Assembly (NCBI GenBank): GCA_002205965.3
Contig: NADL03000004.1
Span: 1,155,126-1,219,125 of the forward strand
DNA: 64,000 nt
Direction of reading: 5' to 3'
From: Kappaphycus alvarezii
Lineage: Eukaryota > Rhodophyta > Florideophyceae > Gigartinales > Solieriaceae
In this document: piece after piece, positions 14,401 through 42,082 of the stretch
How the letters are laid out: each line of letters opens with the position of its first letter
How positions within the stretch are numbered: the stretch's first letter is position 1
Program-made: the position numbers and the translations under genes
The notes under the pieces: model-generated
Databases searched by the model: none
The model's input: only the letters and a program-made list of their open reading frames with translations
What the model was told of the DNA's origin: nothing

Positions 14401-14429
14401 ACTATAAAGTTCTGCTGATCTCTCAGCAT

Positions 14430-15235: not shown

Positions 15236-15449
15236 TTGGGGTGGGTATTACGAGATATATAAACGTACAGCAAGGTTGAAAATCATTCTGCCCATTCGGT
15301 TTTTCTGGTCCCATAACAGTGAGAAACGGGCATTTTTAAATAAATTTTCATGTCCCCAGGGATTGACTTACTGGAATCTAAAAAATAGACCGATTGTTTT
15401 AATAGGAATCTCTAGCTTTACGGGCATATCCGAAGCCTCTTGGTCACTT

Positions 15450-17155: not shown

Positions 17156-19182
17156 ATGGATTCAACCACGACCAACCTCATCGCAGTGCCCACTGCAGTC
17201 GACTCTGATGCCCAATACCGCGAGGAACAGCTCACCAAGCAACGACAAAATGTTCGTCGCCTATGGGCCTTGTTCTGGTCCCTGGCGCGTCAGTATTGGC
17301 ACTTTGCACCTGGTTCCAAGGCCAATTTCGCCTGGGTCGTCTTTCTAGGCCTCGTCCGCAGTGGGCAGTCTGTCATCTTTTCCTACATTTCGCGAGACTT
17401 CTGGACTGCCTTGCAGAAGAAGGACGCTCCCATGTTTTGGAGGCAGATCTTCTTGTTCTGGGTCGTCCTAATGACCGCATTGCCTATCCTTGTCTGGTAT
17501 AGTTACGCAAAGGATAGGCTCTCGCTGCGGTGGAGGAAATGGCATACTGAAAAGATGCTTGTTGATTATTTCTCCTCCCGTAACTACTATGAGATTGATC
17601 AGCGGAAAACAGTTGACAATCCCGATCAGCGAATTGCCGATGACATCAGCGCCTTTACTGGCACATCCTTATCGTTATTCATGTCGGTTTTTATGTCCGT
17701 CATTGACCTTGTCAACTTTTCCATCATTCTCATGACAACTTACCCAAAGCTGTTTTTCGTCCTCTTCGCCTATTCCTCATTCGGTACTGTAATCACCGTT
17801 TTGCTAGGACGACGAATGATTAGTCTCAATTTTAAGCAGCTGCAAAAGGAGGCCGACTTTCGTTACTCGCTCATTCGCGTGCGCGAGAACGCAGAGAGCA
17901 TTGCCTTCTACAACGGTGAAGCCAGAGAGAAGGATATAACCGAGCGTCGCTTCTCATCTGCCCGTCGATAATCTTATTGACTTGATTATTTGGTCCAGAA
18001 ACCTTGCCTTCTTCACCACCCTGCTACACGTATCTTGTTCAGATAGTCCCACTTGGCATTATTGCTCCCCTGTACTTTGCCGGCACCATTGAACTCGGAG
18101 TCGTCTCTCAATCCCAGCAGGCATTTCAACACATTTTGGACGATCTCTCTCTCATTGTGAATGAGTTTGAGCGTCTCAGTGCCTTTTCAGCTGGCGTTGA
18201 CCGTCTTGGCGAACTTGAAGAATTTATATACGCCCGTTTCGCTGAGCATGAGGACCGCAATCTAACGGTGCGGGCTGGGCATGATGATCCGGGCTACTCA
18301 AAGGGCGTGCACAATGATGGCGGCTTTGATGATGGCGACGATAATTTGGAAGATGTCCTCGATCAGACCAGGGATGTTGATTTGAATCAGACAGAAAATC
18401 GAAAAAATGCAGTTGCGCGGTTCCGTCGAATGGCCTTTAGGAGTGAGGACGAGGGGCTTTTAATTGCCGAGGGTGGATCCGCAAGGTTACATATAACCAC
18501 GAGATTCAGTCCCCGTACTGACCCTCATGTGGTTGTGCAGAACTTGACTCTTATGACTCCTGACAAGAACCATCGCGTTCTATTCGAGGATTTATCTTTC
18601 AGTCTGAAGAAGGGGGAACGTTTGCTCATTGTAGGGCCATCAGGAGTAGGAAAGAGCAGTGCGTTGCGGGCATTGGCGGGTCTCTGGAGTTATGGCAGAG
18701 GAAATATAACAAGACCAAGGCTAGAATCAATGCTTTTCCTCCCGCAAAGACCGTACTGCACGCTAGGTTCCTTGAGAGAGCAACTTGTTTACCCAACACC
18801 ATTAGCACTAGCCACAGCAACAGACAAAGAGCTGGATGCGGCGCTAGAAATAGTCAACCTCCAAGATTTGCCGGAACGAATGGGCGGGTTTGATGTAGAG
18901 CGGGATTGGTCAAACATCTTGTCACTTGGCGAACAACAGCGTCTGGCATTTGCACGGCTCATCCTCGCAAAACCTGACATAGCAATACTTGATGAGTGTT
19001 CAAGTGCGTTGGATGTGGCCTCCGAGGATAGGCTGTATTCACATCTTAAGCAGACAGAGGTTGGATACGTGTCCGTGGGCCACCGCCCTACCTTGTTCAA
19101 ATACCATGACGTCGTTCTGCGGCTTGGTATGCCAGGGGGCTCATACACCATCGAAAAGATCACACCCGACATGCAGAGCTAG
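17156..19182 (+). CDS. Half-size ABC transporter, ABCD / SbmA-BacA-like
   Basis: An ATP-driven membrane exporter/importer of the ABC_membrane_2 type (peroxisomal ABCD proteins, cyanobacterial relatives, SbmA/BacA); the substrate cannot be read from sequence. About 674 residues, the usual size. Residues 40-330 form the transmembrane domain, with hydrophobic helices and the family motif [10 protein letters not shown] near 160. A long acidic, Gly/Asp-rich linker follows at about 360-420. The nucleotide-binding domain has Walker [10 protein letters not shown] near 493, Q-loop LPQRPY near 527, signature [14 protein letters not shown] near 588, Walker [13 protein letters not shown] near 608 and the switch His in GHRPTL near 641, so the ATPase looks complete. 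The reading frame changes twice by +1: at the CCC of GCCCGTCGAT (17961-17963) and at CTGCTACACG (18024). Between the two sites the frame reads [18 protein letters not shown], as the family requires. Start: first Met giving a plausible cytosolic N-terminus. It converges with the next gene, 197 bp apart. Confidence 0.88.
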
Positions 19183-19379
19183 GATGACTACCAAGGCATC
19201 TTGCAAGATATTCGATGTTTCATCTTTAACACATGTAACGACACCTAGTTGCTATGTGGCTCGCATAAAAAACAGTGTCACCTCGAACATGATATGTGGA
19301 GCTGTACGGCAAAGCATTTCCAACGAGAGAAAGAGGGCCGCATAGAACCAGTATTCAACTTTGTCATGGGCTAAGCACG

Positions 19380-20517
19380 CTACTTTTGCCCGTTTTGGAA
19401 GACCTTTCTCTGCTTGTTAAGACTTGACGTCGTTGTAACAGTGGGGAACCGCATCCAAACTTGACGACCCCCATCTGTCACCTCCGAAATTTCTGACAAT
19501 GACCCGGGGAGATGCGGTTTCACTCGAGATAACAGCATGAGGTCCTCAGAGGGCAAAACTGCCTTGTCTGCCTTGGCCCTCCTCGGCAAATAAGCTTCCA
19601 ATGGCAGCCTAATTTTCGACGGCACAATATTCTCTGCCTCGTCCTCCAGCGCTGTAAACGTTTCCTTCTTCTTTGCACTACCAGAATTAGTCCCCGTCTT
19701 GACAGTGGCAGTCCTGGCATTTCGTAACGCTTCCTCCTCAAGGCGATCGATATCGGGAGCTCTCCCTGTGCGCCTTCGCAACTTGCGCTTTAAAAACACA
19801 TGTAAACCCTTTTGCTGAGCTGCCTGTCTCGACACTGCTTGAAGTTGCCATGTGTGAAAGTAATCGACAACTGCCCGCCTCGTCATCATGGAGCGACACT
19901 TATTCACTGCGTTTCTCATCTCTGCTACTGGACTGTCCAACACTGGGCATTCTCCCTCATAAAGAACCGACTTGGCTGACACGGTAGATTCATTATCTGA
20001 GTCCCTCGCCACTGGTCCTCCCGCGGCCGCCTCCTTTCCTTTTGAGGGTTGAACCAACACCGTTTTTGTCGACTTTGGTATCTCCGTTCTCTCTCCTTCC
20101 CACCTTTGAGGCCTTCTTCTCAACCTCTTTCCTACTCTTGCCGGATAACTTACCAACAGCGGGGCTTTTCGAGCGCGACCTATTCGACCTTGACCGATCA
20201 TCCGAGCGAGATCGCGAGTGCTCCCCACTGGCATTTGTTCGACGACTTGAGCGACTGTCTGCCCTCTTGGAGGCACCCCGAGAGTGTCCCGGTTCCATCT
20301 CTCGGATACGTTCCTTGGCGTAACGCTCCATGCGACGCTCGCGCTCAACCTGACGGGCACGCTCGTTGCTGGAGAGTTTGCGCCGCTTACGGTCGGGGCC
20401 TTCGTCGTGGCCTCGAGTCGTGGGAAGCTCCTCTTCGCCTTCGTCGGCGGTCTCCGAATCCTCTTTCCGAACTGGTTCAATTTCATCACCCTTTTCATCA
20501 CTGGTGGTAGATGACAT
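19380..20517 (-). CDS. RS-rich nuclear protein of unknown function
   Basis: Begins at 20517 with MSSTTSDEKGDEIEPV. The first half is highly charged and holds a nuclear-localisation-like RKRRK, a long Arg/Glu-rich stretch and an RS-dipeptide region (SRSRSDDRSRSNRSRSKSP), typical of proteins that join pre-mRNA processing complexes. The second half contains a predicted helical segment with RAVVDYFHTWQLQAVSRQAA and ends at 19380 with FQNGQK. I do not recognise the family. The RS region is in one frame and the C-terminal half in another; one +1 frame change between about 20050 and 19994 joins them. A short unseen intron is an alternative. The competing frame from 20501 lacks the RS repeats in its first half, so I prefer the start at 20517. 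Role in RNA processing is an inference from composition only. Confidence 0.6.
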
Positions 20518-21136
20518 TACAGGGACGAAAACGAGACGGTGGAGGTAACTTTTGCTTCAGCAGATGTGATACAGGCAAATTATGGCAATACAGGTTGGGG
20601 TTGTAGACGCTTTATGACAGGTTGGTGGGGAACAAAGGACACTGCTTTTGAACAGCAGGGGTGTCTTGCTCCTTGAAATGTCGGCAGATCTACCTGCTAA
20701 ACACGGTCACGATATTAGAGGCACTGCGTAGAAATATATGCCGCGTGGGCGACGGGCCTAGCTGACTGGGAGTGGTGACAATTTCCGGCCGAAAAAACAG
20801 TAACGTGGCAGACTGCATTCCGGTTTGTATCCTCCGCACCAAATTCAAAATCCATCATCTGACGCCCGCCACCTGCACACGCACCTCGCAACGGATCGCT
20901 AAGATCCTGTGCTAGGCAGCTTGGGCATACCGTAACCGCAAGGATTTTGAGCAACACTTTGCTAACAGTTGTACCCGTCCACCCCGGAAACCGAATTTAT
21001 GCCTAGTTCCACCACAAAAGCTGGTCGTATGGACACATGGAACCCTAAAAAATCTCTCTAGTCGCCCAGGCGAAGCTTCACCCCGCATCTACCCTCTGCG
21101 GTAAAACGCGCATCCCATTCAACGTTTGGAGGTGCT
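20518..21136. other. Intergenic space between two minus-strand genes
   Basis: About 620 bp holding the presumed promoter of the RS-rich protein gene and the 3' region of the zinc-finger gene. One 80-codon frame (20715-20957, minus) has no recognisable motif and I do not call it a gene. Confidence 0.35.
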
Positions 21137-22483
21137 CTACGATGCAACTCCCTCCTCTGCCTTCGCCCTATGCACGTTGGCCATGTGCCTGTTAAGTGTG
21201 CTACGTCTCCCGAAACAACTACCGCAAACCTTACATGCCAGTATTGCAGTCGCAGACTCATGTGCCGACCGCATGTGTGCTATTCTATCCTCCTCTACCT
21301 TAAATGAACGAGGGCAGTGGACACATTGGAAAGGTCCTTCCCAAATGCACTGCTTTTCATGTCGCACAAGGTTCAATCTTGTCTGAAACTTGCGCCCGCA
21401 GTTGGGATGCGGACATGAAAACGCCCGAATATTGTCATGTTTGTTGGCGATATGTCTGTTCAAGTTGCCTTTTTTCCCTCGAATACGTATTCCACATCGA
21501 TCACAAGTCCATATCATCTTGTTTCCATTCTTCTCCTTATCGGCCTCGTTTGAACCCTTCAAACTGGCATTTGGATCTACCTCGAGTGGCATAGGGTCCT
21601 TCTCCTCATACTCAGCTTGCTGCGCTTCCACCTGAGTCGGCTCTGCAGTAATCTTTGGTGTGCTTGATACCCCCAAATCGCCAGCAATGGCACGTTGTTG
21701 AGGAGAGATGATAACCCCACGGGATACCGTCGGGCCGTTCCCTGTTAATTCCCCAGCTGAAAGAATGTTAGTTATGTGAAAAGATCTCCGCTGGCTTGCT
21801 TCAGCGGCCAAACTTGCGCCGCCCCCTTTTGAACCATCCACCTTTGCGCTTGTCGTCATCGACTTTACAGACTGCTGTCCGGAATGCGACTTGTCCAAAG
21901 ACAACCTCGCCGGCGCTACACCAGACTCCTTACATACATCTGACGTATCCAAAAGGTCCGAAACCTCTGCACACCGGCGCCTTTTGCGCTGCGTTCCAGC
22001 CTCCGACAAATCCGCGCGACTTGCCTCGCCAAGCGCCGTGCGGACGGTGCTTGTCACATTACAATTGCCTCCATTCGGCACACCCCGCCGCTCGCTCACC
22101 ACACCTCTTGCAGACGCAGATGCCTGCCAACTGCGTTCCAAACACTTGTGGCTCGGCGCAGCCAATGCACTACTTGCACCCGTGGTTTTACCTTGCCATG
22201 TATCGTGCTCCTCGTCGTTCTCACCAAGCAACGACTTTTCCAAAAACGGGCTGCCCAAATCAAGATTCAACTTGGAGCACAGTCTCTGAATCCTCCCCCG
22301 AACACTGATACCAGCGGTGGACAAGAAAATGTAGCGCGATTCTCTGCCAAAGACCGGAACCTCTGTAGCGGAACGGCCGCCGATTTTTTTCGCAAGCATT
22401 GTGATAATGACGCCTGTACGGCGTGCTTGCGTAGCCTTTTGTTGAAAATCGTGCCACAGGTTCATGGTGGGGACTTGGTGCAT
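21137..22483 (-). CDS. C2H2 zinc-finger protein with four C-terminal fingers
   Basis: A probable DNA-binding nuclear protein of 448 residues with an uninterrupted frame. Four zinc fingers lie in tandem at about residues 322-440: C-x2-C-x12-H-x4-H (WTCDRCG...HIANKH), a variant C-x4-C-x12-H-x4-C (CPHPNCG...HEKQC), C-x2-C-x12-H-x4-H (CVHCPRSF...HMRSAH) and C-x2-C-x12-H-x4-H (CKVCGSCF...HMANVH). The N-terminal 300 residues are low in order, with a basic RKRRR near residue 165 that may act as nuclear signal. Target sites cannot be inferred. Two starts are possible, 22483 and the Met at 22465 (MNLWHDF). The latter overlaps the stop of the upstream gene as ATGA, which is unusual for a eukaryote and raises the possibility that the two frames are one gene. 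Confidence 0.8.
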   Translation of the reverse strand: MHQVPTMNLWHDFQQKATQARRTGVIITMLAKKIGGRSATEVPVFGRESRYIFLSTAGISVRGRIQRLCSKLNLDLGSPFLEKSLLGENDEEHDTWQGKTTGASSALAAPSHKCLERSWQASASARGVVSERRGVPNGGNCNVTSTVRTALGEASRADLSEAGTQRKRRRCAEVSDLLDTSDVCKESGVAPARLSLDKSHSGQQSVKSMTTSAKVDGSKGGGASLAAEASQRRSFHITNILSAGELTGNGPTVSRGVIISPQQRAIAGDLGVSSTPKITAEPTQVEAQQAEYEEKDPMPLEVDPNASLKGSNEADKEKNGNKMIWTCDRCGIRIRGKKGNLNRHIANKHDNIRAFSCPHPNCGRKFQTRLNLVRHEKQCIWEGPFQCVHCPRSFKVEEDRIAHMRSAHESATAILACKVCGSCFGRRSTLNRHMANVHRAKAEEGVAS

Positions 22484-23500
22484 AGGCTGAAGTTGGGATG
22501 TGTTGCAGGGGTTGGATTGCGGGGTTGCTTGGTAACGATCCAGGAGGATGCGGTTTGGGGAGTGTTGGGAGGGGTTGGTGAAGTTTGAGGTTGGGAGGTG
22601 TTGGAATGGTCATCGGAGGTTGCGGCGGTGGTGTTGCTGGTGGTTGCTGTGGTGGTGGAATGTGCGGTATGGTGTGCAAAGTCATGCTCGACGTTAAAGT
22701 GCTGATGTTTGTGGTATACAGCGGGGTTGGGGGTGCGGACGGGGTCCTCCGGTTCTCTGGCAATGAGGAGGTAGTAATCGTCGGGGGGGTCTATGAAATG
22801 CAAGGGGAGTTCTGCGGGGTGGAGGGGATGGGAGGGAGGTTGTGCAGAGTGGGAGGTGTCCGAGAAGCGGTGTAAAGGTGAGGTGTTGTTGGCCAGGGCC
22901 TCTGCGGCGCGCGAGAGACGGAGTGCGGTGCTCTTGTTGAAGACGCGATGTTCGGCGCGAGTGAGGTAAGGGTGAGGGTGATCGGTGCGAGCGTTGTTGA
23001 GACTTGATCGGGATATGCTGGTGACGACGCTTAGGATGCCTGATTGGAACCAGTTAAATTCGATGGCGAGGTAAAAGTGGGAGTAAGGATGAGGAGCTCT
23101 TTGGCGGGCGGTGCGACGAACGAGGACATTTGGATTGCTGAGTGCTGGGTCTTTCATGACTTGGAAAAGAAGTGGGATGATAGGGTTGAGACCCTTGAAA
23201 CCAAAGTGGAAACCGAGGAGGGTCTCTGCGTCGCGGGTGAAGACTGTGACGAGATCACCGATGTCAGGAAAGGCATAGAGAGAGGATTGTTGGGAGCCAA
23301 AGATGTAGCCGACAAGCATGGGACTGGAGAGTAGTGCTTGGACGACATGGGAGCGGGGAGGGGGGGTCACGTTGGAAGAGCCAGGCGCGAACACGGGGGG
23401 CACGCATGAAGAAGGACCATATTTGCTGCCAAGTGTAGTGTGGTGTTTGAGAGGGAGGGGAGGGGGAATGGGAGGGGTTGGGATGGTGGAGACGGGACAT
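22462..23500 (-). CDS. Unknown protein with Trp-rich start and His/Thr-rich tail
   Basis: The best model begins with the ATG at 23500 (MSRLHHPNPSHS), runs through YTWQQIWSFFMRAPRVRAWL, and shifts +1 in a run of seven C (coding strand; 23360-23366) into the long frame PPPRSHVVQALLSSPMLVGY, which stays open to 22462; about 345 residues. Without the shift the long frame has only a GTG start at 23403. Residues 50-150 are hydrophobic to amphipathic (SSLYAFPDIGDLVTVF, GFKGLNPIIPLLFQVM, FYLAIEFNWFQSGILSVV). The end is His/Thr/Pro-rich and probably disordered. I do not recognise the family. Its stop codon overlaps a possible start of the zinc-finger gene by four bases on the same strand. Confidence 0.5.
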
Positions 23501-24052
23501 GGAGGGGGGGAGGGAGAAACGAAAGTTCAGAGGCGAACGGAAAAGGGAAAGAAGGCGAGACTTGAGTGGGCGGGTGATGGCTCAAATAGCAAATGGGCAA
23601 AAGAAAAGAGATAAAAGAGGTAAAAGATAAGTAAAGCCAGGAAGGTGAGTTGGTGAGGTCCAAGCGTTGAACTGTTGAGTACAGTAGTACAGCTTTGGGG
23701 GATTCAAGCCTGAATGCCGCACTTCGTACTGTACTGTAGTGAACAATGTAGCCATGTGGCCACACCAATGCTGCACTGTACCGTACAGTACTTTTAAAGC
23801 AACTGGCGTCTCCCAGTGGTCAGATTTGTACCAAATTTCATTCCGCAAGGGTTTTTGCGCAAATTAGATAATCTGCAACCCATTGTTCAATGCTGTAATG
23901 TGGCATATGGTCCAATCATGACCCAGGAAAGCAACAAGCGACCTTTTCGACCACTCAATCGCACCCTGGCTTGACGAACGGGAGGAACACTAGATGGTGA
24001 TTTGCCAAAATTTCCCCTGCTCTCATCCGAAACCCTGCCTTGACGAAATACT

Positions 24053-24139
24053 CTACTGTACTGTGCAACTGTATACGGTAGTACAGTCTACTGTCCTTTA
24101 CTGTACTGTACTGTAGGTACGTACAGTTCATGTACCGTG
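24053..24139. repeat. Cluster of TACTGTAC-type palindromic repeats
   Basis: Within about 90 bp there are repeated CTACTGTACTGT, GTAGTACAGT and TTACTGTACTGTACTGTAGG units and a final TACGTACAGTTCATGTACCG. Units are self-complementary (GTACAGTAC/GTACTGTAC), so the stretch could form hairpins or bind a dimeric protein. Confidence 0.7.
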
Positions 24140-24260
24140 CCCTTTCATCTGGCTACTGGCTTACTCAGCTAATCTCTTGGTTGTACCGTACAGTGTATCC
24201 AATAGACAACCTCTGAGGCATGCACAGGGCCCTTTCCTGGTCGTCAGCACAGGCATGGCT

Positions 24261-24290
24261 ATACTGTACTGTACTGTACTGTACAGTAAC
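24261..24290. repeat. Five-fold TACTG tandem repeat
   Basis: ATACTGTACTGTACTGTACT followed by GTACAGTAAC; the right end is the inverse of the left, so the array is a perfect short palindrome-like repeat. Confidence 0.8.
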
Positions 24291-24463
24291 GTGTCACAAC
24301 TGGGTCTCAACTTGACGTATTTGCCAGGAGGGAAGGTTTGGCAACTCCTTAATTTCAAGGATTTAGAGAGGCGCTTGTGGCTGGATCAAGCCATGAGCCC
24401 CGTCTGAAGGTCAGACGATGGGGAGAATGCCCAAATATCCGCTCGTTTTGCATGATCACAGTC

Positions 24464-24487
24464 TACAGTACCGTACAGTACAGTACA
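24464..24487. repeat. TACAGTAC repeat
   Basis: Reads TACAGTACCGTACAGTACAG then TACA, the same motif family as at 24053-24290 and 42349-42374. Confidence 0.75.
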
Positions 24488-26864: not shown

Positions 26865-26872
26865 TTTCCCGC
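26865..26872 (+). promoter_or_regulatory. E2F/DP-type binding site before the DP start codon
   Basis: TTTCCCGC matches the E2F consensus TTTSSCGC and lies 12 bp before the ATG of the DP gene. E2F autoregulation is known in animals and plants. An 8-base match can occur by chance, so this is a candidate only. Confidence 0.4.
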
Positions 26873-26884
26873 ATCCGGGTCTAG

Positions 26885-27970
26885 ATGGATCCATCGGCTC
26901 GCAACTCCACTACACGGCCCTCCCCTCGTCGCTTGACGCGTTCTTCCATACCCTCGAAACAACTCTTTGACCTTCCACGGCTACCTCCTCCCTCGACCTC
27001 AAACGGAAGAAAGGAGGCTGCATTGCCTCCCAAGCTCGGTATTAAGAAACGCAAGCCACGTGATCGTTCTGTCGTCGCTGCTGCCAACCACAGAGCCCGC
27101 GCGGGCCCCGTTGGTGCCTCCCAACTGCCAACCTTACAAAAGCCTGTACCTACGCCGAAGCGCCAAGTGAAGGGAGTTGAACATGAAGCAAGGCGAAAGG
27201 GCTTGAGGCATTTTGCAGTCAGAGTTAGTAAGAAAGTTGAGGAGAAGGGTGTCACCACATACAACGAGGTCGCTGATGAGCTCGTCTCTGAGGAATTGGC
27301 CTTGCGTAAAGCAGAACTGGCCAGTGGCGGTGAGATGTCTGCAGACTTGCGCAAAAGGTTAGAGAGGGGCGGAGGCCTTGTTGATGAGAAAAACATTCGC
27401 AGGAGAGTCTACGATTCGCTCAACGTCCTCATGGCCATGGGCATCATTCAGAAGGAGAAGAAGCTGATCAGTTGGCAAGGCCTTGCCATGGCCCGTTGTG
27501 CTCGAGTCAACAGTCAGATTGCTACAATTAAGGCCGAAATTGCAGAGCAGAAGCGCATTTTAGGAGAGAAGGCAGAGATGGCGGCCGCATCACAGGATCA
27601 ACTAGCAAGAGCTACGGCCTTGGTCGAACGAAACCGCCTAGACCTTAGCGCGAGTGATGTCCTGAACCTTGGTGACCCTCGCCTTCCGGTGCATCATTAC
27701 CATGCAGATCGCATTGGCCTTCCATTCCTCGTGTTTAGTGCTCCAAAGGATGCATCCATTGGGCTTGAGATGGACAAGGCCCGTGAGAATATCTGCTTTA
27801 CGTTCAGTGATTCCTTCGTGATTCTAGACGAAACACAGATTGTGCGTAGGATGCAACTCCCTGCACCTGTGTCCCTATCTTCGTCAAATGAGGTGCAGTA
27901 TTTGGAGCAGCTAAACAATGAGATTCAGGCAACTCCCGCTCCCCAAAACACCGCCTCAGCAACGCCTTAG
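26885..27970 (+). CDS. DP: DP transcription factor, dimer partner of E2F
   Basis: The DP subunit pairs with E2F to bind TTTSSCGC sites and control entry into S phase; it acts in the nucleus. 361 residues, frame uninterrupted. Residues 1-95 are basic and disordered (RRLTRSSIPSK, KKRKPRDR). The winged-helix DNA-binding domain spans about 96-200 and contains GLRHFAVRVSKKVEEKG, TTYNEVADELV and the DP hallmark NIRRRVYDSLNVLMAMGII followed by KEKKLISWQGL. The dimerisation part follows: a heptad-like coiled coil from about 202 to 255 (IATIKAEIAEQKRI), then the DP-type beta region LPFLVFSAPKDASIGLEMDK with FTFSDSFVILDETQIVRRM to about 325. The RRxYD DNA-contact motif is present. The start is the first Met of the frame, with an E2F-like site 12 bp upstream. 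No introns, unlike plant and animal DP genes. Confidence 0.95.
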   Translation: MDPSARNSTTRPSPRRLTRSSIPSKQLFDLPRLPPPSTSNGRKEAALPPKLGIKKRKPRDRSVVAAANHRARAGPVGASQLPTLQKPVPTPKRQVKGVEHEARRKGLRHFAVRVSKKVEEKGVTTYNEVADELVSEELALRKAELASGGEMSADLRKRLERGGGLVDEKNIRRRVYDSLNVLMAMGIIQKEKKLISWQGLAMARCARVNSQIATIKAEIAEQKRILGEKAEMAAASQDQLARATALVERNRLDLSASDVLNLGDPRLPVHHYHADRIGLPFLVFSAPKDASIGLEMDKARENICFTFSDSFVILDETQIVRRMQLPAPVSLSSSNEVQYLEQLNNEIQATPAPQNTASATP

Positions 27971-28137
27971 TTGCCATCCTTGCTCGTCAGTTTCAATCCT
28001 GTTTCATCATTCAAACAATCTTGTGGGTCCATCAAACACCCGTATCCGTTGCTCTAACCAGAGGGCATCTAGAAGAAAGATGGAATGCTATTCTGTGCAA
28101 AGTACAATAGCCTAGAAGGGGATACGAGTGAACGGTT

Positions 28138-31434: not shown

Positions 31435-32982
31435 TCATCGAATGACACTTCCCTGCCTGAGAGACTTCAATGTGGACTGGCCACGGCCACCACCTCGCGA
31501 CGAGTGCCCACCTTCCTTTCCTGAATCGGCGCCTGCAAACACCTTCCAGAATCGCAGCGTTTCATCAGCAGCACCTGAAACAACCGTCTGTCCATCCGGG
31601 CTTAGCGCCATATGCAGGACCCTTGAAGTATGTCCCTTCAGCTCCGCCATCCTCGCCAGGGACGGGTATTTCCACACGGTCAGTTGATTCTGCGAAAACC
31701 CATGGCTGGTCACCAGCTCCTTTTCATGTGGCGACCATACAATAGCGCACACTTGAGACTTTGTATCCACAGTATTCAAACATGCGCCACTTGAAGTGTT
31801 CCAGAACCTCAGATGCCTGTCCGCGGTTCCACCCCCCGTAGCCAGCAGATTGGTCTGCCATGGGCACCATGCCAATGCCTTGACAGCGGCCGAATGATGA
31901 TCGAAACGATGTTTCGGTGTCCATCGGGGGCCTGTATTCTGGTTTTCCCACACGCATACCAAATTGTCATTCCCCCCGATGCCAATTGCCTGCCATTCGG
32001 GCTCCACTTCAACCCGCAGACCTCCTGCTCATGGGCGACCAAGGTAGCCACGTGATGTTGACGACTGCGCACATCATGGTTGTGGATGCTTGCATCGCGG
32101 GAACCGGAACTGAGCAGATGGCCGTTCCAGGCCAGGGCGCCGACGGGCGGTATGGGAGCGCATGCGTCGAATGCAGGTTGACTTTTCAGCGTCCCAGATC
32201 TGAACCTCATTCCTGTTGGTACCGACGGCAATGTTGTTACTGTCCGGCATCCAAGAGACCGATGTGATACAGTCGCCATAGTCTGAGGTCTCGCAGAGTT
32301 GGTCGATTGTTCCAGTGTCTGCATTCCACAGGTAGACAGTCTCTGCGAGTGCCACAGCCAGTGTATTATTGGAGCCCCAATCGATGAGATTGAGATAAAA
32401 GTCCTCCATGAGGCCCGGGGCGTCGAGGATCTTTTCTGGCTGCTGCGGGATATGACGGAACCTGTTACGACGCACGGCGGCTCCGCAATAGTTTTGATCG
32501 TAGACGACTCGGTTTGGATTGAGGTAGCCCTCCTTTGGTTCAGGGGCCTTGTCGCTAAAGGCGAGAATTTTCTTGTCTATACCTTTGAAGGGGCAGGGAT
32601 TACCATTTGCATCAAAGAGCGGCATGGGAGCATCGAGAAGGGTAGAGGCGAGGCAGGAACCATAAACGAGGGACTCCTTGGAACGGGCCGAGATGTCTTT
32701 GCCGTTTTCCTTGCCACAGTCGAAAGTGAGGACATGACGGCCGAGATCCATGTCCATTGCCGAACGGCGGGGTATAAAACGATCGCCGCATGGGGTCTTG
32801 GGACGCTTGCCGTTTTGTTTTGCGTGGGTAGTTCTGGCAGAGAGTCGGGATGTGGCAGAATACATGTTGGTGTACGAGTGGTTGGCCTCGAGTGCTTTGC
32901 GTTTCCAGCGAGGAGTGGGGCCATTGGAAAGGGGGGCAGCGAAGGAATCCAAGTCCTCGGAGCGTCTGTCTGTGGTAGACAT
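31435..32982 (-). CDS. CDC20: CDC20/Fizzy, activator of the anaphase-promoting complex
   Basis: Recruits substrates to the APC/C ubiquitin ligase at anaphase and is the target of the spindle checkpoint. About 515 residues, normal for the family. The C-box DRFIPRR is at residues 67-73, a KEN box at 91-93, then the conserved [20 protein letters not shown] leading into a seven-bladed WD40 propeller (blades end with [48 protein letters not shown]). The last residues are VIR, the IR tail that docks on the APC/C. CDC20 is favoured over CDH1 by the LDAPxLxDDFYLNLxDW form. Two one-base frame changes occur: +1 at the CCC of GCCCGTCGG (32145-32147) and a missing G in the run at 31972-31977. Restoring them gives continuous WD repeats, so the gene is probably intact in life. 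It is divergent from the gene at 33841; the shared 858-bp space carries MSA-like motifs. Confidence 0.93.
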
Positions 32983-33311
32983 GATGGATGAGTGGTTCGG
33001 TAAGGGAGTTGTCCAGGCAGGTATTTTTTTTTTTGAGCGAGGGGTGTGATAAAGCGGAAGCAGAGAAAAGAGCAGAAAGTAGCGGAGAAAACAGTAGCAG
33101 TAGGCAGGGGAGAGGGGGAGGAAGTCAAAGGGGATGTCACGGTCGGGTGCAGAGGGTTTGTTTATATAGCACTCCGAAAAGGGAAAAGGCGAGTGCAGAT
33201 CAGCGGCATCAGATATGTAACGAATCGGGAATTTTGCTGAGATGGAAGGGTGGAAACTTTCCAGCCTGGTATTGCTACCAACAAGAGCGGTTTTGACAGA
33301 GATTAGGGCAA

Positions 33312-33413
33312 AACGGTCTTAGAGTGTATTTTATTGGACCGTTTCAGTACGAGGATAGCACAGGCACTGCACGTGAGTATAGCCAATGGGAGGGCAGCGA
33401 TATAGCCGTTAGA
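33312..33413. promoter_or_regulatory. AACGG (MSA-like) and CCAAT motif cluster
   Basis: Between CDC20 and the divergent small gene there are three AACGG cores: 33312-33316 (plus), 33339-33343 (minus) and 33406-33410 (minus). The last sits in TCTAACGGCTA (minus, 33413-33403), a full match to the plant mitosis-specific activator consensus YCYAACGGYYA bound by three-repeat MYB proteins. CCAAT boxes are at 33383-33387 (plus) and 33333-33337 (minus). The cluster is 330-431 bp upstream of the CDC20 start. Function in this organism is an inference from plant G2/M genes. Confidence 0.5.
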
Positions 33414-33840
33414 AAAGAGAGATACACGAATCGGGAGGATACATATGGACACGTGGCATTTCCATGTTGTCATCTTGGAATCGTCAAGGAAAGGGGCAGT
33501 GTACACTTGGCGGTTGATGAATGGAATGGGGGCGAATTTGGAACCATTGGAAGGGAGGCGGAGGGGAGGGCAGTGACGGTGGCGGTGAGTCGCACAAAAA
33601 TGAAAGCACAGCGAGAGCATTACAGTGTAAGAGGAAAGAAGGATGGGGAATGAAATGGGACCACAAACTGCCGATAAATCAGGCAATCGCGACGGTGCAA
33701 TGACTGCATTTCAGTGGTTTATAGTATGACCTGCCATTTGCAATCCCTCTTCTCCCCCCCCGTCCGCCACCCGCAGATCACCCGTGTTCCCGCCAACCCC
33801 ATCTCCCCTCCTCATCCCATCCCAAATCCCCTCCCCAACA

Positions 33841-34369
33841 ATGATCCCCCCCACCCGTCATCCCCTACCATCATTCACCATTCCCCCCACACTCTCCGCC
33901 TCAACCTTTCTCCCCCACTCTCCACCCCACCCGTCAATCCCCAACCCACCTCCACCTCCACCTCCACACCCAAATCTCCGAACCCCTCCTCTCCACCCTA
34001 GCCCCCCTCCCTCCCAAAAATCCCCGTCGCAAGCCTCGAATCACCCCCCCTCCCCCTCCACACCCCCCTCCACACCCCACAACAACCCACACCCACACCT
34101 CCCCATACTCACTTCCAGTCCCCCCGCCACTCCCCCACCAAATCATACCCAGTCGACGAGGTCGTGATGGCAGACGACGCGCAGCACAGGCAGAGTCTTT
34201 TCGACGATACATTCATCTGAGAAGGCAGTTGAAACCGTGGAGTGACTCGTTTCGCGCAAAGCATGGCCGTACTCCAAGCCTTATCGATGTGCATGCGGAG
34301 GATATTCCGGGCTTGTTGGACCGGTTTTTGGAGTACCTTGACGCTTTGGATGCCCTGCGTCATTCGTAG
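33841..34369 (+). CDS. Small Pro/His-rich protein with Sld2/RECQL4-like motif
   Basis: A frame open from 33845 to the TAG at 34367-34369 has no start codon of its own. The ATG at 33841 lies one frame away, separated by a run of seven C (33846-33852); a +1 change there gives a protein of about 175 residues. Residues 1-110 are Pro/His/Thr-rich (TRQSPTHLHLH, PLLSTLAPLPPKNPRRKPRI). The C-terminal 65 residues are ordered: RRAAQAESFRRYIHLRRQLK, then KPWSDSFRAKHGRTPSLIDV, then GLLDRFLEYLDALDALR. The pattern LK.W...F...HGR.PS..D resembles the N-terminal motif of Sld2/RECQL4 replication-initiation proteins and, more weakly, FAM13-type helices. There is no helicase domain. Divergent from CDC20, so co-regulation through the shared promoter is possible. 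Identification is tentative; the frame itself is well supported by the sharp change from low-complexity to structured sequence. Confidence 0.5.
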
Positions 34370-35328
34370 ACCGTGTGTGTCACCATTTTGCATGTGTGCT
34401 CTCTCGTCCTGCCATTTGCCACACCCGTGTCAATTGGCCGGTCGCTGGTTGTCGGAATTTCGACCAGGCTTGGTTGTGGAGAGGGGGGTGTTTCAGGTGG
34501 TTGCCATTTTGTGCCGCTTGCGAGGTTGGTTCTTTTTTTTTTGTGCTCTAGTGGAACGTTTTGTACCATATACGCACGTCCGAATTTTGGGCGGTTTATT
34601 TACATCAGGTGTGGGTGATGGTGGGGGTCGGTTTTCGTTGTTGACATTTTACAGAGGCTGGTGAACAGGACCTGGGTGGCGTGGCTTTCAAGTTTGCGTA
34701 GTGATGTATTGGGCGGATTTCAGTTTTTGTGAGCCTTGGTGGATCAGTGGCGTTTGACATGTTTGTGGCGGGTGCTATGGTGGAGCGTTTAGAGCTGACA
34801 TCGTAGTGGGCATAGGGCTGTTGCCTGCACATTGCTTTCATGCTTGAATGAATGAGCAGGAACTTTTGACGTTGAATTGAGCAGGTGGGCGCGACAAGGC
34901 GGGATGAGTAACGGTGCCTCAATACAGTACGTCGGCCGTATGAATTCCCGACTTGCTCGGGAGATCATGACCTGATTTTGTAACAGAGGTGTAAGCTGGA
35001 ATTATAAAAAAAAATACAAAAGTGCAAGCACTTTGTCCAAGATGCACAAGTCGTTTGCCAACAGCCAGGAGATGCACAAAGCCCATCTACTTGCCGTTTG
35101 CACGTCTTCTTTTGATCAAAGACGATTGGCAGAGACTGCACTGCATACGCCTAGCAGAGAAATATTTCAAGCCGTCCATTGTTGCGCCAGCACGACAGCA
35201 AAGGTTCCTTCAACCAGTCTGCCCTCCAACCTCAATAGCTACTATTCAATTCACTGGATACCCAGCTCCACCCCACCCATCAGCCTGAGCTCGCGCCATA
35301 TCTCGTCATCCTCCACCTCTGCCCAACA
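34370..35328. other. Intergenic, GC-balanced, no gene seen
   Basis: Lies between two plus-strand genes. Open frames of up to 140 codons are compositionally biased shadows. A single TACAGTACG motif is present near 34923. The 300 bp before 35329 are pyrimidine-rich, as in front of other genes here, and likely hold the promoter and leader. Confidence 0.35.
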
Positions 35329-36036
35329 ATGCCTCCAACCTTTATCCTGTCCGTCCCGCTATCCGCCACGCCATGCCACCCACCCGCATCGTCCCGCTTC
35401 CCCCTTTATCAACACCCTGCATCCCATCAACACTCCCTCCGACGCCCCGCCCGCATTTTCATGACCCTCGAATCCTCCAACCAACTCTCCACCGCTAAAC
35501 CCTCCACCCCCTCTCTCGGCTGGGCCGTCTGTCGCGAGCAATACCTCAACCAATCAGGCTCCAGCGATCAACAGACTCTCGACTTTCCCGGCGCACATTT
35601 CTCCCCTCCGCCCCCTATAACCGGTCAGGATCTCCTGGATATCATCCGAGGAAATACACCTGATGCCTGGGTGAATGAAATTTTGAGGACCTTGCTTGGT
35701 TGGCGACAGTTGGAATCGGGCGCTTGGGATGATACCCATGTCGAGGATAAGTGGAAGCAGGCTTATAAAAAGGGACCCCCGGATTTTATAGGGAGGGAGG
35801 GCGACTATGAGCCGGCGTTTGACAGGCCGGTTAAGGCCGCTGTTGCTAATCTTACACGCTCGGTGCCGCCAAAGTACAAGCCGGCGTTCCGGGAGGTTAT
35901 CGAACCGTTGGGGTTTAAGGGCTGGAGGATCAATCAGTTGACACCCAATTTGACCAGGAGGGCCCAGGCGGTCAATTGGATTCTCTACTGGTTTCGGACC
36001 CACCATCCTGATTATGTTTGGTCAGTCCATGAATGA
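35329..36036 (+). CDS. DUF1823-like conserved protein of photosynthetic organisms
   Basis: A 235-residue protein whose C-terminal 150 residues fit the DUF1823 family of cyanobacteria and plastid-bearing eukaryotes, as I recall its pattern: PITGQDLLDIIRGNTPDAWV, NEILRTLLGWRQLESGAWDD, a KWKQAYKKGPPDFIG segment, PVKAAVANLTRSVPPKYKPA, PLGFKGWRINQLTPNLTRRA and VNWILYWF. The function of the family is not known to me. The N-terminal 90 residues are rich in Ser/Pro/Thr with few acidic residues and may be a plastid transit peptide. Start: Met at 35329; a second Met at 35461 (MTLESSNQ) would remove most of that extension. The frame is uninterrupted. It converges with the phosphoesterase gene, 608 bp away. 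Confidence 0.75.
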   Translation: MPPTFILSVPLSATPCHPPASSRFPLYQHPASHQHSLRRPARIFMTLESSNQLSTAKPSTPSLGWAVCREQYLNQSGSSDQQTLDFPGAHFSPPPPITGQDLLDIIRGNTPDAWVNEILRTLLGWRQLESGAWDDTHVEDKWKQAYKKGPPDFIGREGDYEPAFDRPVKAAVANLTRSVPPKYKPAFREVIEPLGFKGWRINQLTPNLTRRAQAVNWILYWFRTHHPDYVWSVHE

Positions 36037-36644
36037 GATGGATATGCTTGGATATTTGGCTTGTGCGGCCAAGCACTACTACGAAATTCCTTTTTCCGAC
36101 TTGCAGCCATCACACTGCTGATAAAGAATCTTCACAGCGGATAAACTTCGCAGCTGAAGCAGCACAAGGCACGGGTAATCGTCGAGGGCCAACTTTAGTT
36201 ATATGACTCTGGCAGTAACCCGCCCCGACATCCTGTGGCACTAGCCCTGAATAAAAGTACGCTCATGTATCGTTGACTATGGTGCGTCCGAGTGAATCAC
36301 TCCGAATCACTCTGTCCACTCCTATCATTACAAAGCTCAGCGAGGCAAGCACAAAATCGTTTCCTTGCAAATTCGGCGGGCCAGTCCTCACCCAACCGGT
36401 GGTTTGCACTGTTTGCGACGAGAAAGTCACAATGCCCTCGTTTCCCTGCACCTGTGACCGTTCGAGAAGCGCCCCAGCGGGCCCAGAGTCACCAAAGCAA
36501 GGAATTCCCGCCCTTGTTGCTCGCCGCTGACCTATTGCTGACCACTCGCAGCGTGGTGCAATGCCGCTGTCAAAATATGCTGTCTTTCCTCCGCAAGCAC
36601 AGCGATGGTACGACTCGTGTTCGCACGCCTTGTCTCCCAGACTG
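36037..36644. other. Intergenic space between convergent genes
   Basis: Contains the 3' regions of the DUF1823-like gene and the phosphoesterase. Frames of 85-143 codons on both strands overlap each other and the phosphoesterase end. One (36273-36530, plus) has a CxxC-rich piece, VVCTVCDEKVTMPSFPCTC, but no family I can name. Confidence 0.35.
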
Positions 36645-37727
36645 CTACCCCATCGGGGAGCACGGTAGCGACACTGATACTGGACTCGCCTCAAACACAG
36701 TATAGCTTTCCGCGACCTGCCCCCTCTCCGTGACCCAAGTCTCAGTCACATTCTGCACGGCCCCCCCGTCCAACGACACCACCTGAAAATGATGCAGCCT
36801 TTGTTGCGACGCGTGTCCAATCTTATGCCGCGGGACAACAGCCGCATTCACCATCACGGTCACATCACCCGACGCGCCATCAGGCTCTGTGGTGACCATG
36901 GTTCTCAGCCCACGATTCTTCATCAGCTGCTTGTGCATATGGCCAAACACTGTCAACGGCACTCGCATCCCCTGCTTCCTCGCCTTTTCTATCGCCGCGC
37001 GTAAATCAGCATCACCGTAATCACCCCCCGGAAACTCGCCCCAGTCCTTGCCGCATGGGTCACTTGGCGCGCTTCCCAAGCCTGTAGGTCCATTATGACC
37101 CAAAAATACAACCGTCGAGTAATCAGAGGATTCCACCGCCTGCTCCATCTTGAGTTTGGAATGTACCTCATCCTCAACACCAACAAACTGTTGATAAAAC
37201 GCCTTGTACTTCCAATTCGGCCCTCCGACAGAAAATGCACGCCCACCACACACTGACAAACTGACACTATCAAAGGCAACACTACGGTACGACACGTCAT
37301 GACTCTTCAACAAACGCATCTGCTCTGTAACTCGACACACTCGCGACTCTTATCATACGGAGCACGACGGCGGCCATTTTCAGAGGCGGTGAAAAAGGCG
37401 TCATGATTTCCAAAAACAGTAGCCACACCAAAATCACTGTTGGCTGCAAAATCGGAGATGCGACGGGTGATGGCCACATTTTCGTCGCCAAAATCGCCAA
37501 CGAAGAGGGCGAGGTCGGGATTGAGTGCGCGCAGGGGCAGCCTCGTCGGATGGGGTCCATTCGCCGTGGATGTCACCGACGCAAACGATTTTGGTGGGAC
37601 GGGTGCGAGGAGAGGCGGTTTGAGGGGCTAGACACATCGTGGAGTGGGGAAAATGGGGCGTGCAAAATTGACGCGGGCGATGCGTGAGACCGCCGAGAAT
37701 GCAGAGGGAAAAGGCGGTGAGACGCAT
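36645..37727 (-). CDS. Calcineurin-like metallophosphoesterase, TIGR04168-type
   Basis: A metal-dependent phosphoesterase of the kind shared by cyanobacteria, algae and plants; the substrate is unknown. Motifs in order: TKIVCVGDIHGEW (metal site GDxHG), ALFVGDFGDENVAI (GDxxDxN variant), TVFGNHDAF (GNHD), VVFLGHNGPTGLGS with DPCGKDWGEFPGGDYGDADL (diagnostic block for this subfamily) and VFGHMHKQL (GHxH). All metal-binding positions are present. About 360 residues from the ATG at 37727 (MRLTAFSLCILGG); the first 45 residues look like a targeting sequence, plausibly for the plastid. A Met at 37637 is the alternative start. Two frame changes are needed: +1 in a four-C run (37534-37537) and a compensating -1 at about 37325-37360. 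Each frame carries conserved motifs, so the gene is probably intact. Confidence 0.85.
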
Positions 37728-38684
37728 GTGGAAGAGTGTGGGGGAGGGGGATTTGAGACGGAAGGGATGGGGAGGTTGGGTGCGCGGATGGGGGATGGCC
37801 ATTCGTTGGGGGAATTGGTGCGGGTGGGTTTTGGGGTTAGGATCAAGAGTAAGTGCACAGGGGATGAAAGGGCCAGGTAATCGGGACGGAGGTGGGATGT
37901 TGTGAGGCCAGCGGGTGGCCTTTATGATATCAACTGATGGTGAGTTTGTCATGATAGCAGCAAGGCATTGGCAATGGCATAACAATTTCTATGACAATGG
38001 AAGAGCGATTCGCTATGCTAATTCACTGCATATTTTAAGATAGTGAGGTATCGTAATCATGGTGGCATCGCAAAGCTTGAGGCCCTTGTAGAGAAGATAG
38101 CAAAAATACACCTTTCTGCACCTCACACATGCTCCCACCTACATGCATAGCTGCAGCCTGCAAGGAAATACTATACCATCTTCAAACGCCACCACAACAT
38201 CCAGGCTATCACACGGCCCATTAAGACAAGCCCAACATCACCTCTTCTCCTCAACATTCATTTACAGTGCTGCATCCACATTATGTGTCCTACGCATTGA
38301 CAATAGCCGTTGCCGGACAGGTTCCCTTTAGCACACGTCCCCAAAACTAAATATAAACTCCCTGTCTCCGCCTTCAAAACTCAAAACGGGCACACTTTTC
38401 AACGTATTGCATGATCTGCTGTGGTCGACAACATCGCCGCTACAGGGCACCCGATCGTTCAGGCTTCTCTTGCAGTTGCTTTCGCCGTTCAACCAGAGCG
38501 AAGAGGCCAACCTTTGATTACTGCAGATGCACAACCCCTCCGGAATTGCTTCATGAAACCACTCCTACAAGAGTTTCATTACCATTCTCTCGTCAATCTG
38601 TCCTGAAAGCCTTCGAATACATAACATCATCATCCCTATTACCTGTACAAATTCCTATATCACAATAATCTACAGTCCACCTTC
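37728..38684. other. Intergenic space between two minus-strand genes
   Basis: Just under 1 kb with the presumed promoter of the phosphoesterase and the 3' region of the TPR gene. Long frames near 37728-37985 are extensions of the phosphoesterase frame and low-complexity shadows. From 37920 onward nothing recognisable. Confidence 0.4.
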
Positions 38685-41600
38685 TCAACCTTCTCCATCC
38701 AACAAAATATTATCCAGCCCCGCAATCTCCCTCCGACAATCATCCACATACATCTGAGCCTTAACGTCATCCGCATCCAACTCCACCGCCCTCTCAAACC
38801 GTTCCTCTGCTTTCTCAAACCATTTCCTGCACCTCCCCTCATTCTCCTCGGTCGACTTGCCCAACCTCCCCAGAGATATATACGCCAACCCGCAATTAAA
38901 ATACCCGATTCGACTCCCCCCATTCCTCTCCAGCAGCCCGTCATACAACCCGCAAGCCCTCTCATAGTACCCTCTCGCCTTATCCGCATCACTAATCGAT
39001 CCCAGCAGGCACAAACACAAACCCAGGCTACAAATCGTTTCTTCATCCCCATCCCTTTCCTCCACGCTCCCCAACAACAACCCCAACGCCCGCTCCAACA
39101 TATCCTTCGCCTTTGAATCTCCAATGTTCGTCTTGGCCCATGAAACTAATGTCGCACCCAGTTGCCCTTCCACTGCCGCCCGCTCCTCCCCAAGTTCCAA
39201 CGCTGCTTCTAGTTTCGATATCGCACTCTGGAACAACCTGCCAGACTGAGACACCGCCAACCCCCGTCGACGCGCTTTTCGCACCAATTCATTCGCTGAT
39301 GCTCTTAGCTCAGCTGAACAAAATTCCCTTTGCCTCCCTCCAGGCTGCTCCATTCCTATTTGGCCTGCACTGCCCGTCTCTACATCCAAACTGGGCTCCT
39401 CTGTGCTGGGCTTGGGCGCAGTCGGTACCACATTGCAACTGACCTGTCCTTCCTCGACATTTCCGTCGGCCGCTCCATGTTCTTCCCTCCCACTGATTGT
39501 TGAAAAACTGTTTATGGATGACATACTCTCGGGCAGCACATCAGAACCATTCTCAGATTGTAATCCATCACCCCGCGATGGGTCATTAACGCCAGGAAGC
39601 GGTGTTGTTAGCAATGACACATCCGAGATGTCTTCTTCAGATTTCTGAGCAAGTCCGACTTCCGGCACAGGGGGGGTTGCACTGCGGGCACTGGATGGTA
39701 CGTTTTTGCTCACTGGCTCCAACGGATGCGGCCGATTTTCAGTGTCCTCCTTCATGCTGTCTGGCGCCAGAGTTTGTGTTTGCCCGTCTTCGTTAAGGTT
39801 TTCCTCCGCCGATAACGAATCAGGTGATGCGAGTTGAAAAAAATCCTCTGACGTTCTCTTATCGACATCGGTCGAACTCGTCAAGTCGTGTTCCAAAACG
39901 CCCATGGTATTCTGTTCACGGGTCCGTAGAAACTCGCTCGTTGAAAATGGTTGCAACGAGATCACGTCCACATCAACTCCTTCGTTGGAGGAGCTTAAGG
40001 AATCGGTTGCACGACCGACATTCTCCTCAGACTTTACGCCCGCTTTCAATGCAGTTCCATCTAGGTCAGCACCCGAAAGGGCAATCCCTCCTTTCTCGGG
40101 GATCTCCCGTGAAATCATTGGCCCGTGGGGAGCATTCGCAGCCTCGCTAACCACAATATTGTTATCCTCAATAGTCGTGCGCAAGGGAGCAGTTTTCTTT
40201 TCCAAAACCGTTCCGTGCATTATCTGGCTTGAGTCGCTCCCGAAAGCTAGCTTACCCATTGCATCTCCGAGTTTTTTCCCCTCGTCTTCAGCCTTGGACG
40301 TCGGATTCTTATTCTCCTCTGACACGTCTCTAACAACCGGATTAGACCGGGATTCATCATCAGACCATTGTGGCTCACGTTCGCGACGCTTGTTCTCATC
40401 AGCGATGCGTGGCTCACATTTGCTGGGATTCACCTCGGAGCCTGGGCTCTGACTCTGCCATGAATCTGGTCTTCCACTATCCAAACCAATCGAGGAACCA
40501 TTCCTTGCTGGAGCTGCAATTTCACTTTGGAGTGAATGCTCATTCCTATCTCCCTCCACTTCCGTGACCAACAACTCAGATTTTCCAGCCATAGATGCCC
40601 GAGGAACATTTTCTGGACCACTACCTCTTCCATCTCCATTTGTGTTATCCCTTGTTTTGTCATAGCTGTGTCCCGAAGTGTACTCTCCGTTCTGTTGCAA
40701 TGAACCTTCAAACTCACCCCTTGAGAATGAAAACACGTTATCCACCCCGCTCCTAGGCAATTGGGGTGCATTTACGTCACCACCGTCGAGCTCGCTTCTA
40801 CTTGCCTGGTTAGAATCCTCACTCGCAGCCCCAAACCCTCCATCCGGCGGTAAGCCGTGCAACTGAGGCTGTTGTTTCTTATCGGAATTCCCACCCTCCA
40901 AAGCACCATCCGGCCATCCTAGACTCTCGGGCCTAGCCTCCTTTTTATCCTCCCCCAGCAATTCTTCATACAACAAAGAACCCGTCCCAAACGAACGCCG
41001 CTCCCTCAGTTGAGCATCCAGAACCTCTGTGTCCCTATTCTTCCGGCGGGCCGTATCCTCGTCACGAATGCCAAATCTTTCCTTCAGCAAGCCCATTAAA
41101 TTCTGCACCCTCTTCACTTGGCTCTCCGCATCTCCTGCCCTACCCTTCCACTCCTCCCTCTCACGAACCCCACCCAAAATCCTCTGTTTCAACTCTTCAT
41201 TCCTCAGCTCTGCTCGTTCCAAGCGCTCCATGACTTGATCCAACCTTGCAGCCTTGACTGTCAATTCCTCAAGCTCCTCCGTCATTACCATTTCCCTCCT
41301 GGCAGCCTCCTCCAATTGATGAGCGAGGGTTTCCCCTCCGCTTTTGGCCTCCTGAAAATTGACCTCAGCGAGTCTCAACCTCTGTTCCACCTCCCTCTTC
41401 TCCCTCTCCGCCTCCCTCAACCTCCCCCTCAAAACCTCGACTTCCGCAACCAATGGAATCGGGGCGGCGTCCTCTGCGCGATTCCTAGTCTCAATGACAC
41501 GACGCAAGTCCCGCAACGAAGAATCCAAGGACGACAACATGTGTGCAATAGATGCATTCCGACGGTCCTCCCGTTCAAGGGCGGAGCGTTCGACCTGATC

Positions 41601-41762
41601 CAGGGCATAACGCAAGGATTGCGCTTGCTGTGTGACAAGCGTAGGTACATCCGGGGCAGTTGCAAGGGCGGTGTGTTGGTGCGTATGGTCGGTTGGTGGT
41701 GTTGTTTCGAAAGGGGGTTGGACGTTGGTTCGGGTACGACGGTTGTGGAGATAGCGACGCAC
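38685..41762 (-). CDS. Large coiled-coil protein with C-terminal TPR repeats
   Basis: An uninterrupted frame of 1025 residues. Residues 45-245 are a long coiled coil (RLREAEREKREVEQRLRLAE, KAARLDQVMERLERAELRNE). Residues 250-830 are acidic, Ser/Asn/Glu-rich and probably disordered. The last 180 residues contain TPR-like helical pairs: LFQSAISKLEAALELGEERA, AKDMLERALGLLLGSVEERD, GYYERACGLYDGLLERNG, IGYFNCGLAYISLGRLGKS and WFEKAEERFERAVELDADDV. TPRs bind partner proteins; no enzyme domain is present. The first in-frame codon that could initiate in a bacterial sense is GTG at 41762, so the eukaryotic start must be upstream (next entry). I do not recognise an orthologue. The frame ends at 38685 with LDNILLDGEG. 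Confidence 0.8.
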   Translation of the reverse strand: MRRYLHNRRTRTNVQPPFETTPPTDHTHQHTALATAPDVPTLVTQQAQSLRYALDQVERSALEREDRRNASIAHMLSSLDSSLRDLRRVIETRNRAEDAAPIPLVAEVEVLRGRLREAEREKREVEQRLRLAEVNFQEAKSGGETLAHQLEEAARREMVMTEELEELTVKAARLDQVMERLERAELRNEELKQRILGGVREREEWKGRAGDAESQVKRVQNLMGLLKERFGIRDEDTARRKNRDTEVLDAQLRERRSFGTGSLLYEELLGEDKKEARPESLGWPDGALEGGNSDKKQQPQLHGLPPDGGFGAASEDSNQASRSELDGGDVNAPQLPRSGVDNVFSFSRGEFEGSLQQNGEYTSGHSYDKTRDNTNGDGRGSGPENVPRASMAGKSELLVTEVEGDRNEHSLQSEIAAPARNGSSIGLDSGRPDSWQSQSPGSEVNPSKCEPRIADENKRREREPQWSDDESRSNPVVRDVSEENKNPTSKAEDEGKKLGDAMGKLAFGSDSSQIMHGTVLEKKTAPLRTTIEDNNIVVSEAANAPHGPMISREIPEKGGIALSGADLDGTALKAGVKSEENVGRATDSLSSSNEGVDVDVISLQPFSTSEFLRTREQNTMGVLEHDLTSSTDVDKRTSEDFFQLASPDSLSAEENLNEDGQTQTLAPDSMKEDTENRPHPLEPVSKNVPSSARSATPPVPEVGLAQKSEEDISDVSLLTTPLPGVNDPSRGDGLQSENGSDVLPESMSSINSFSTISGREEHGAADGNVEEGQVSCNVVPTAPKPSTEEPSLDVETGSAGQIGMEQPGGRQREFCSAELRASANELVRKARRRGLAVSQSGRLFQSAISKLEAALELGEERAAVEGQLGATLVSWAKTNIGDSKAKDMLERALGLLLGSVEERDGDEETICSLGLCLCLLGSISDADKARGYYERACGLYDGLLERNGGSRIGYFNCGLAYISLGRLGKSTEENEGRCRKWFEKAEERFERAVELDADDVKAQMYVDDCRREIAGLDNILLDGEG

Positions 41763-42082
41763 GGACCAGAGGACCTGGGGAATGGCGAAAAAGGCAGAGG
41801 CAAAGGCGAGAAAGCGGGGTACGGGCGAGGAGGGAGGCGATTATGGCAAAGGCGGCGATGGATAGTTGGATGGCGGTCTCGGCGAGGAGAATTGCGATGG
41901 GGGGAAGGGGGGATTGGGGAATGGGAGGGGAGGAGGGGGGGTTGGAGGGGGCTTGTAGTTTGGCGTGAAGGCGGAGATGGGGGTTGGGGGCTTGAGGAGA
42001 AATTCGGATGCGAGATGGATGGAAGATGGAAATGGAGGATGGAGGAGAGAGGGGGGATTGGGGGGAGGATGAAGGCGTACAT
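41763..42082 (-). other. Probable N-terminus of the TPR gene, with two membrane helices
   Basis: Directly upstream of the long frame the same frame reads RFLAFASAFFAIPQVLWSV, a likely membrane helix. One frame away, joined by a +1 change in a four-C run (41816-41819), is ETAIQLSIAAFAIIASLLAR, another helix. Further out, a second +1 change in the C-rich run near 42055-42066 leads to an ATG at 42080-42082 (MYAFILP). The joined protein would be a membrane-anchored coiled-coil/TPR protein. The hydrophobic pair adjoining the frame is well supported; the start is not. Confidence 0.5.

Follow-up and report, generated by a model that had tools for sequence, protein, structure and literature searches.

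Frame breaks in genes of a Kappaphycus alvarezii contig very probably reflect single-base consensus errors in an assembly with a diverged second copy

Programmed +1 ribosomal frameshifting is known from the nuclear genes of Euplotes and from the mitochondria of Perkinsus. Genes that, like those, are readable only with a change of frame occur in a 64,000-nucleotide stretch of the red alga Kappaphycus alvarezii (positions 1155126-1219125 of contig C4, NADL03000004.1; the whole stretch is referred to here as the window), where an ABC transporter gene, a CDC20 gene and several of their neighbors are interrupted by frame breaks of one or two bases. Unlike in Euplotes and Perkinsus, no fixed slippery motif was seen here, the signs of the shifts are mixed, and the sites are not common to a second copy of the region. 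Another type of described system, the gene-breaking errors of long-read assemblies treated in passages of two reports, resembles the window in that small insertions or deletions (indels) produce apparent frameshifts with sequence variants nearby. In a collapsed assembly of Trypanosoma brucei Lister 427, nearby allelic variants caused reads to be aligned wrongly, with indel errors as a result (PMC8445201), and in an early FALCON assembly of a hummingbird genome indels were introduced where haplotypes were merged (PMC5632298). The copies compared here have diverged further (about 4-7% in the core of the region) than the 4.2 variants per kb given for T. brucei in the relevant passage (PMC8445201).

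The comparison of copies makes it very probable that the frame breaks are single-base indel errors remaining in the assembled consensus, the assembly being one that would hold two diverged haplotypes or homeologues separately. The assembly comprises 336,021,096 bases in 884 contigs. The gene-rich part of the window has a second, syntenic copy in reverse orientation at about 489-517 kb of contig C679, and a second copy of each of the three genes searched (TPR, ABC transporter and CDC20) was found there. Identity between C4 and C679 is about 93-96% for the long alignment blocks within the core (window 16.5-42.6 kb) and reaches 98% for single genes, with 82-92% in three short blocks near 24 kb and 76-92% in blocks beyond the core. 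C4 and C679 may be diverged haplotypes or homeologues; we infer the allelic status of C679. Because eight CCT genes are likewise present in two copies (main blocks about 93-97% identical) and four CCT/Cpn60 loci had no partner among the loci fetched, the assembly is suggested to have kept two haplotypes separate.

Breaks were assigned to one copy by frame tracking, in which both copies were followed between successive indels by means of stops and the third-position excess of substitutions, and the frames were then checked by codon usage trained on nine genes. Differences between copies cannot reveal breaks common to both. The differences are listed below in window coordinates.

17961..17963, plus strand: ABC transporter gene, one-base gain private to the window, assigned by frame tracking and because C679 is open through the site
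18019..18024, plus strand: ABC transporter gene, second one-base gain private to the window
19383..20519, minus strand: RS-rich gene, two gains in C679 at 20145-20150; window longer at 20020 and 19506
21140..22609, minus strand: C2H2 zinc-finger gene, uninterrupted in the window, with five one-base indels private to C679
22465..23526, minus strand: gene with an open frame in the window (the 22465 gene); C679 broken at 22571, 22783 and 22994
23360-23366, within the 22465 gene: two-base length difference in a G run, assignable to neither copy
31972..31978, minus strand: CDC20 gene, one-base loss private to the window; C679 and a CDC20 paralogue (L069, on contig C669) longer
32141..32148, minus strand: CDC20 gene, two-base loss private to the window; longer form common to C679 and L069
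33843..33852, plus strand: Sld2-like gene, length difference in a C-rich stretch, assignable to neither copy
37339..37340, minus strand: phosphoesterase-like gene, two-base gain (AC repeat) private to the window, from frame tracking and codon usage
37534..37537, minus strand: phosphoesterase-like gene, one-base gain private to the window
38688..41840, minus strand: TPR gene, open in the window as far as 41818, with a one-base gain there
42051..42060, minus strand: upstream of the TPR frame, two-base length difference in a G run, assignable to neither copy

The frame breaks listed in the original prediction are present in the assembled sequence, and C679 differs in length at all 11 of the reported sites. 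Seven of the 11 are well-supported breaks private to the window (two each in the ABC transporter, CDC20 and phosphoesterase-like genes and one in the TPR gene), and C679 has 12 well-supported private breaks of its own (five in the zinc-finger gene, two in the RS-rich gene, three in the 22465 gene, and one each in the phosphoesterase-like and TPR genes). Three of the reported sites, all in stretches rich in G/C (23360-23366, 33843-33852 and about 42055), could be assigned to neither copy, and the same is true of differences at 19139 and 27937. The ABC transporter and CDC20 genes are wholly open in C679, and the zinc-finger gene, whose disruption in C679 had previously been missed, is wholly open in the window. 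The TPR and phosphoesterase-like genes are interrupted in C4 and C679 alike, but not at the same places: the phosphoesterase-like gene of C679 is broken at 37407-37409 instead, and its TPR gene is open at 41818 and broken at 39964. Because C679 has a different length at each reported site and is also broken at places of its own, assembly mistakes are indicated. Consensus errors had been proposed as the simplest explanation, and the C679 comparison strongly supports that proposal. Each contig would have gathered consensus errors of its own.

Conserved parts flank the breaks, as had been claimed, in the two genes with Pfam domains on either side. The membrane part of the ABC transporter (PF06472) lies before the breaks and the ATPase part (PF00005) after them, in different frames, and the WD40_CDC20-Fz domain was found in both pieces of the CDC20 gene, split over frames. 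The corresponding C679 genes are uninterrupted and encode 737 amino acids, counted from the first methionine, and 516 amino acids, respectively. The CDC20 paralogue on C669 (79% identity) sides with C679 at both CDC20 sites and has neither break.

CDC20 (31438-32985 in the window) is amplified in the assembly, with 30 DNA matches to the window gene. Fourteen matches outside C4 and C679 cover at least 1390 of its 1548 bases at 76-80% identity. The matches are on C74, C461, C669, C625, C841, C740, C125 and C221, many of them on C461, C74 and C669, with open copies intermingled with stop-bearing fragments.

Larger indels were distributed quite differently from one-base indels. When events within 6 bases were merged, non-3n indels of 4 bases or more (those whose length is not a multiple of three) numbered 0 in 12.8 kb of coding DNA and 30 in 13.3 kb of noncoding DNA, compared with 16 coding and 34 noncoding one-base indels (Fisher p = 0.0003). 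Without merging, the counts were 2 versus 33 and 20 versus 41 (p = 0.002), the two coding events being neighboring TPR gaps of 14 and 4 bases that sum to 18. The coding spans were those of nine chosen genes, omitting the Sld2-like gene and everything above 41817. Selection is purging real frameshifts yet leaves these one-base differences in place. No nonsense codon was present in any of the five window genes that were compared. The earlier statement that the genes are not decayed is thus upheld by the lack of nonsense codons in those five genes and of larger non-3n indels in the coding spans.

Genes elsewhere in the assembly have similar breaks. Eleven pairs of copies (8 CCT and 3 HSP70; 16,592 bases) were compared, with L049>L051 dropped as a duplicate of L048>L051. 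The unpartnered loci on C479, C571 and C569 and at C585:4442046, the HSP70 pair L054/L062, and unpaired HSP70 loci were left out of this table. At least one frameshifting indel was present in 10 of the 11 pairs, and in total there were 46 (35 losses, 11 gains) alongside codon changes of which 242 were synonymous, 42 nonsynonymous and 1 nonsense. Relaxed selection in the broken copies was not seen in most pairs. For example, synonymous to nonsynonymous changes between broken and open CCT copies were 12:0 with two frameshifts, 25:0 with five, and 22:1 with eight. The compared frame of the CCT-gamma copies (L013 and L033; C736:2347282-2348773 and C585:1624628-1626112) has 2 substitutions and 5 one-base indels in 1153 bases, with two more indels downstream. 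Similarly, the 1137 bases of the RS-rich gene in the window differ between copies by 1 substitution and 4 one-base indels. With indels nearly unaccompanied by substitutions, consensus error explains the RS-rich and CCT-gamma genes far better than mutation does.

The coding DNA of L013 and L033 is nearly identical, and their flanks are clearly more diverged. Gene conversion or shared reads are possible sources of the coding likeness.

Programmed +1 frameshifting at C-rich sites, or ribosomes that tolerate frameshifts there, would account for coding frames and domains that carry on either side of the breaks, and the original prediction that the shifts are mostly +1 holds for six of the eight assigned window breaks, one of the six being the two-base CDC20 loss; the other two are -1, and the numbers are too few to demonstrate a bias. 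In C679 the net shift is +1 in only 4 of 13 breaks and 9 of the 13 are losses; losses also prevail in the CCT/HSP70 pairs. (These direction counts, and the neighbor counts given below, include the uncertain RS-rich positions 20020 and 19506.) Programmed frameshifting is expected to have a uniform direction and sites conserved in alleles and paralogues; the signs are mixed in both copies, and neither C679 nor the CDC20 paralogue on C669 conserves the sites. Among one-base differences between the copies, the window has the longer form in 15 of 20 in coding DNA and 29 of 41 in noncoding DNA. The same one-base excess in noncoding DNA means that the bias is a property of the contigs, not of translation. 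The claimed association with C runs stood for about half of the breaks (coding-strand C runs at 17962, 18020, 37537 and 41819); coding-strand G runs are found at 20022 and 31978 and an AC repeat at 37339. The octamer GCCCGTCG is indeed present at both 17960 and 32141, as noted originally and as frameshifting at a motif might have it, but relative to C679 one site is a base gained and the other a two-base loss. The octamer occurs five times in the window (0.86 expected), three times at no reported break, and is also found in loci L006, L010, L041 and L047. With most window copies away from breaks, opposite length changes and occurrences in other loci, GCCCGTCG was dropped as a frameshift motif. 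We regard programmed frameshifting as extremely improbable here. Correction of real genomic indels at the RNA level, by deletion or insertion editing, would also fit conserved genes with open frames flanking the breaks, and the strong constraint on most broken CCT copies would agree with it. Such editing would have to make different changes at different positions in the two TPR and the two phosphoesterase-like copies; no motif was seen, and some copies are nearly identical save for the indels. The chance that such editing is at work seems negligible. The suggestion of frameshifting or RNA-level correction was not borne out: C679 differs at every reported site, several of the genes concerned are broken in C679 at other positions and chiefly by losses, the signs are mixed, the sites have no motif in common, and the bias is the same in noncoding DNA.

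Real frameshift mutations would be expected if one copy of each duplicated gene were decaying, and the TPR, ABC transporter and CDC20 genes each do have a second copy on C679, which for the ABC transporter and CDC20 is open. Decay of one copy is at odds with the differently placed breaks that each copy of the TPR and phosphoesterase-like genes carries, with the lack of nonsense codons in the five compared window genes and of larger non-3n indels in the coding spans, and with broken CCT copies that show almost only synonymous changes (25 to 0 in the pair with five frameshifts); this explanation is very unlikely. It is scarcely credible that even a minority of the breaks, such as those in both CCT-gamma copies discussed below, are genuine features of the DNA that the ribosome bypasses or that are corrected in the RNA.

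If the breaks are consensus errors, their source data were probably long reads, and some of the extra bases in the window could come from mixed reads of the two haplotypes. Haplotype mixing is proposed because several of the window gains adjoin substitutions between the copies. In a test devised after the alignments had been seen, 4 of the 8 window breaks and 1 of the 13 C679 breaks were within two alignment columns of a substitution; for simulated insertions the figures were 116 of 1500 and 119 of 1500.

Several points weigh against consensus error as a full account, including the after-the-fact design of this test. The implied errors, at about one in every 1-2 kb of coding sequence, are frequent for an assembly that has been polished. 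The density of one-base differences in coding DNA is roughly half that in noncoding DNA (1.25 versus 2.56 per kb), and therefore part of the noncoding ones are real. Nonsynonymous changes outnumber synonymous ones in the TPR (69 versus 36) and zinc-finger (11 versus 9) genes, and the HSP70 pair L040/L046 is less constrained, with 24 nonsynonymous changes and 1 nonsense change. The assignment of the RS-rich differences at 20020 and 19506 to one copy is uncertain, and codon usage leaves the frame unsettled at 20021-20097; if 20020 is a loss in C679, a break at about 20060-20097 would be common to both copies. Two breaks, one at a G run and one at a short A stretch, are present in both CCT-gamma copies. 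Because those coding copies are nearly identical, shared reads or systematic error would account for the common breaks. It is here that the second copy says least against a genuine feature of the DNA, and if the two breaks are, against the odds, real, a chaperonin gene with frame breaks at the DNA level would be a striking case.

As consensus errors the breaks are ordinary and without meaning as a frameshifting signal, which removes a false lead. They also flag the assembly: pseudogenes and odd gene models taken from it need comparison with the partner contig, because in a Cpn60/TCP1 search 15 loci were split into at least two matches (introns are possible), compared with seven that matched almost the full profile in a single open frame.

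Support for the remaining assignments varies among genes. In the 22465 gene, the three breaks assigned to C679 are based on third-position substitutions (0, 0 and 7 by codon position in 22995-23359) and on codon usage, which supports one common frame in three stretches of this gene. The first in-frame methionine of the TPR gene is near 41540 in both copies, and the site at 41818 counts as a break only on the assumption of a coding N-terminal extension, which codon usage favors. Many small indels separate the copies of the Sld2-like gene at 33827-34079, where the frame is ambiguous. No Pfam match was found for the gene originally reported as Sld2-like, or for the two scanned pieces of the gene originally reported as a phosphoesterase.

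Other genes in the window include a transcription factor DP gene (26885-27970; E2F_TDP and DP domains), with a one-base difference between copies near its end, and a gene with a DUF1823 domain (35239-36036), which is open in both copies and has no indels between them in 35300-36036. Three consecutive open frames at 45713-47825, two with weak, sub-cut-off Pfam matches to a zinc knuckle and a gag-type aspartyl protease, look like a retroelement. No stop-to-stop frame of 150 codons was found upstream of position 17123. The G+C fraction is about 0.45-0.54 in the gene-rich middle of the window and about 0.33-0.44 at 1-16000 and 54000-64000.

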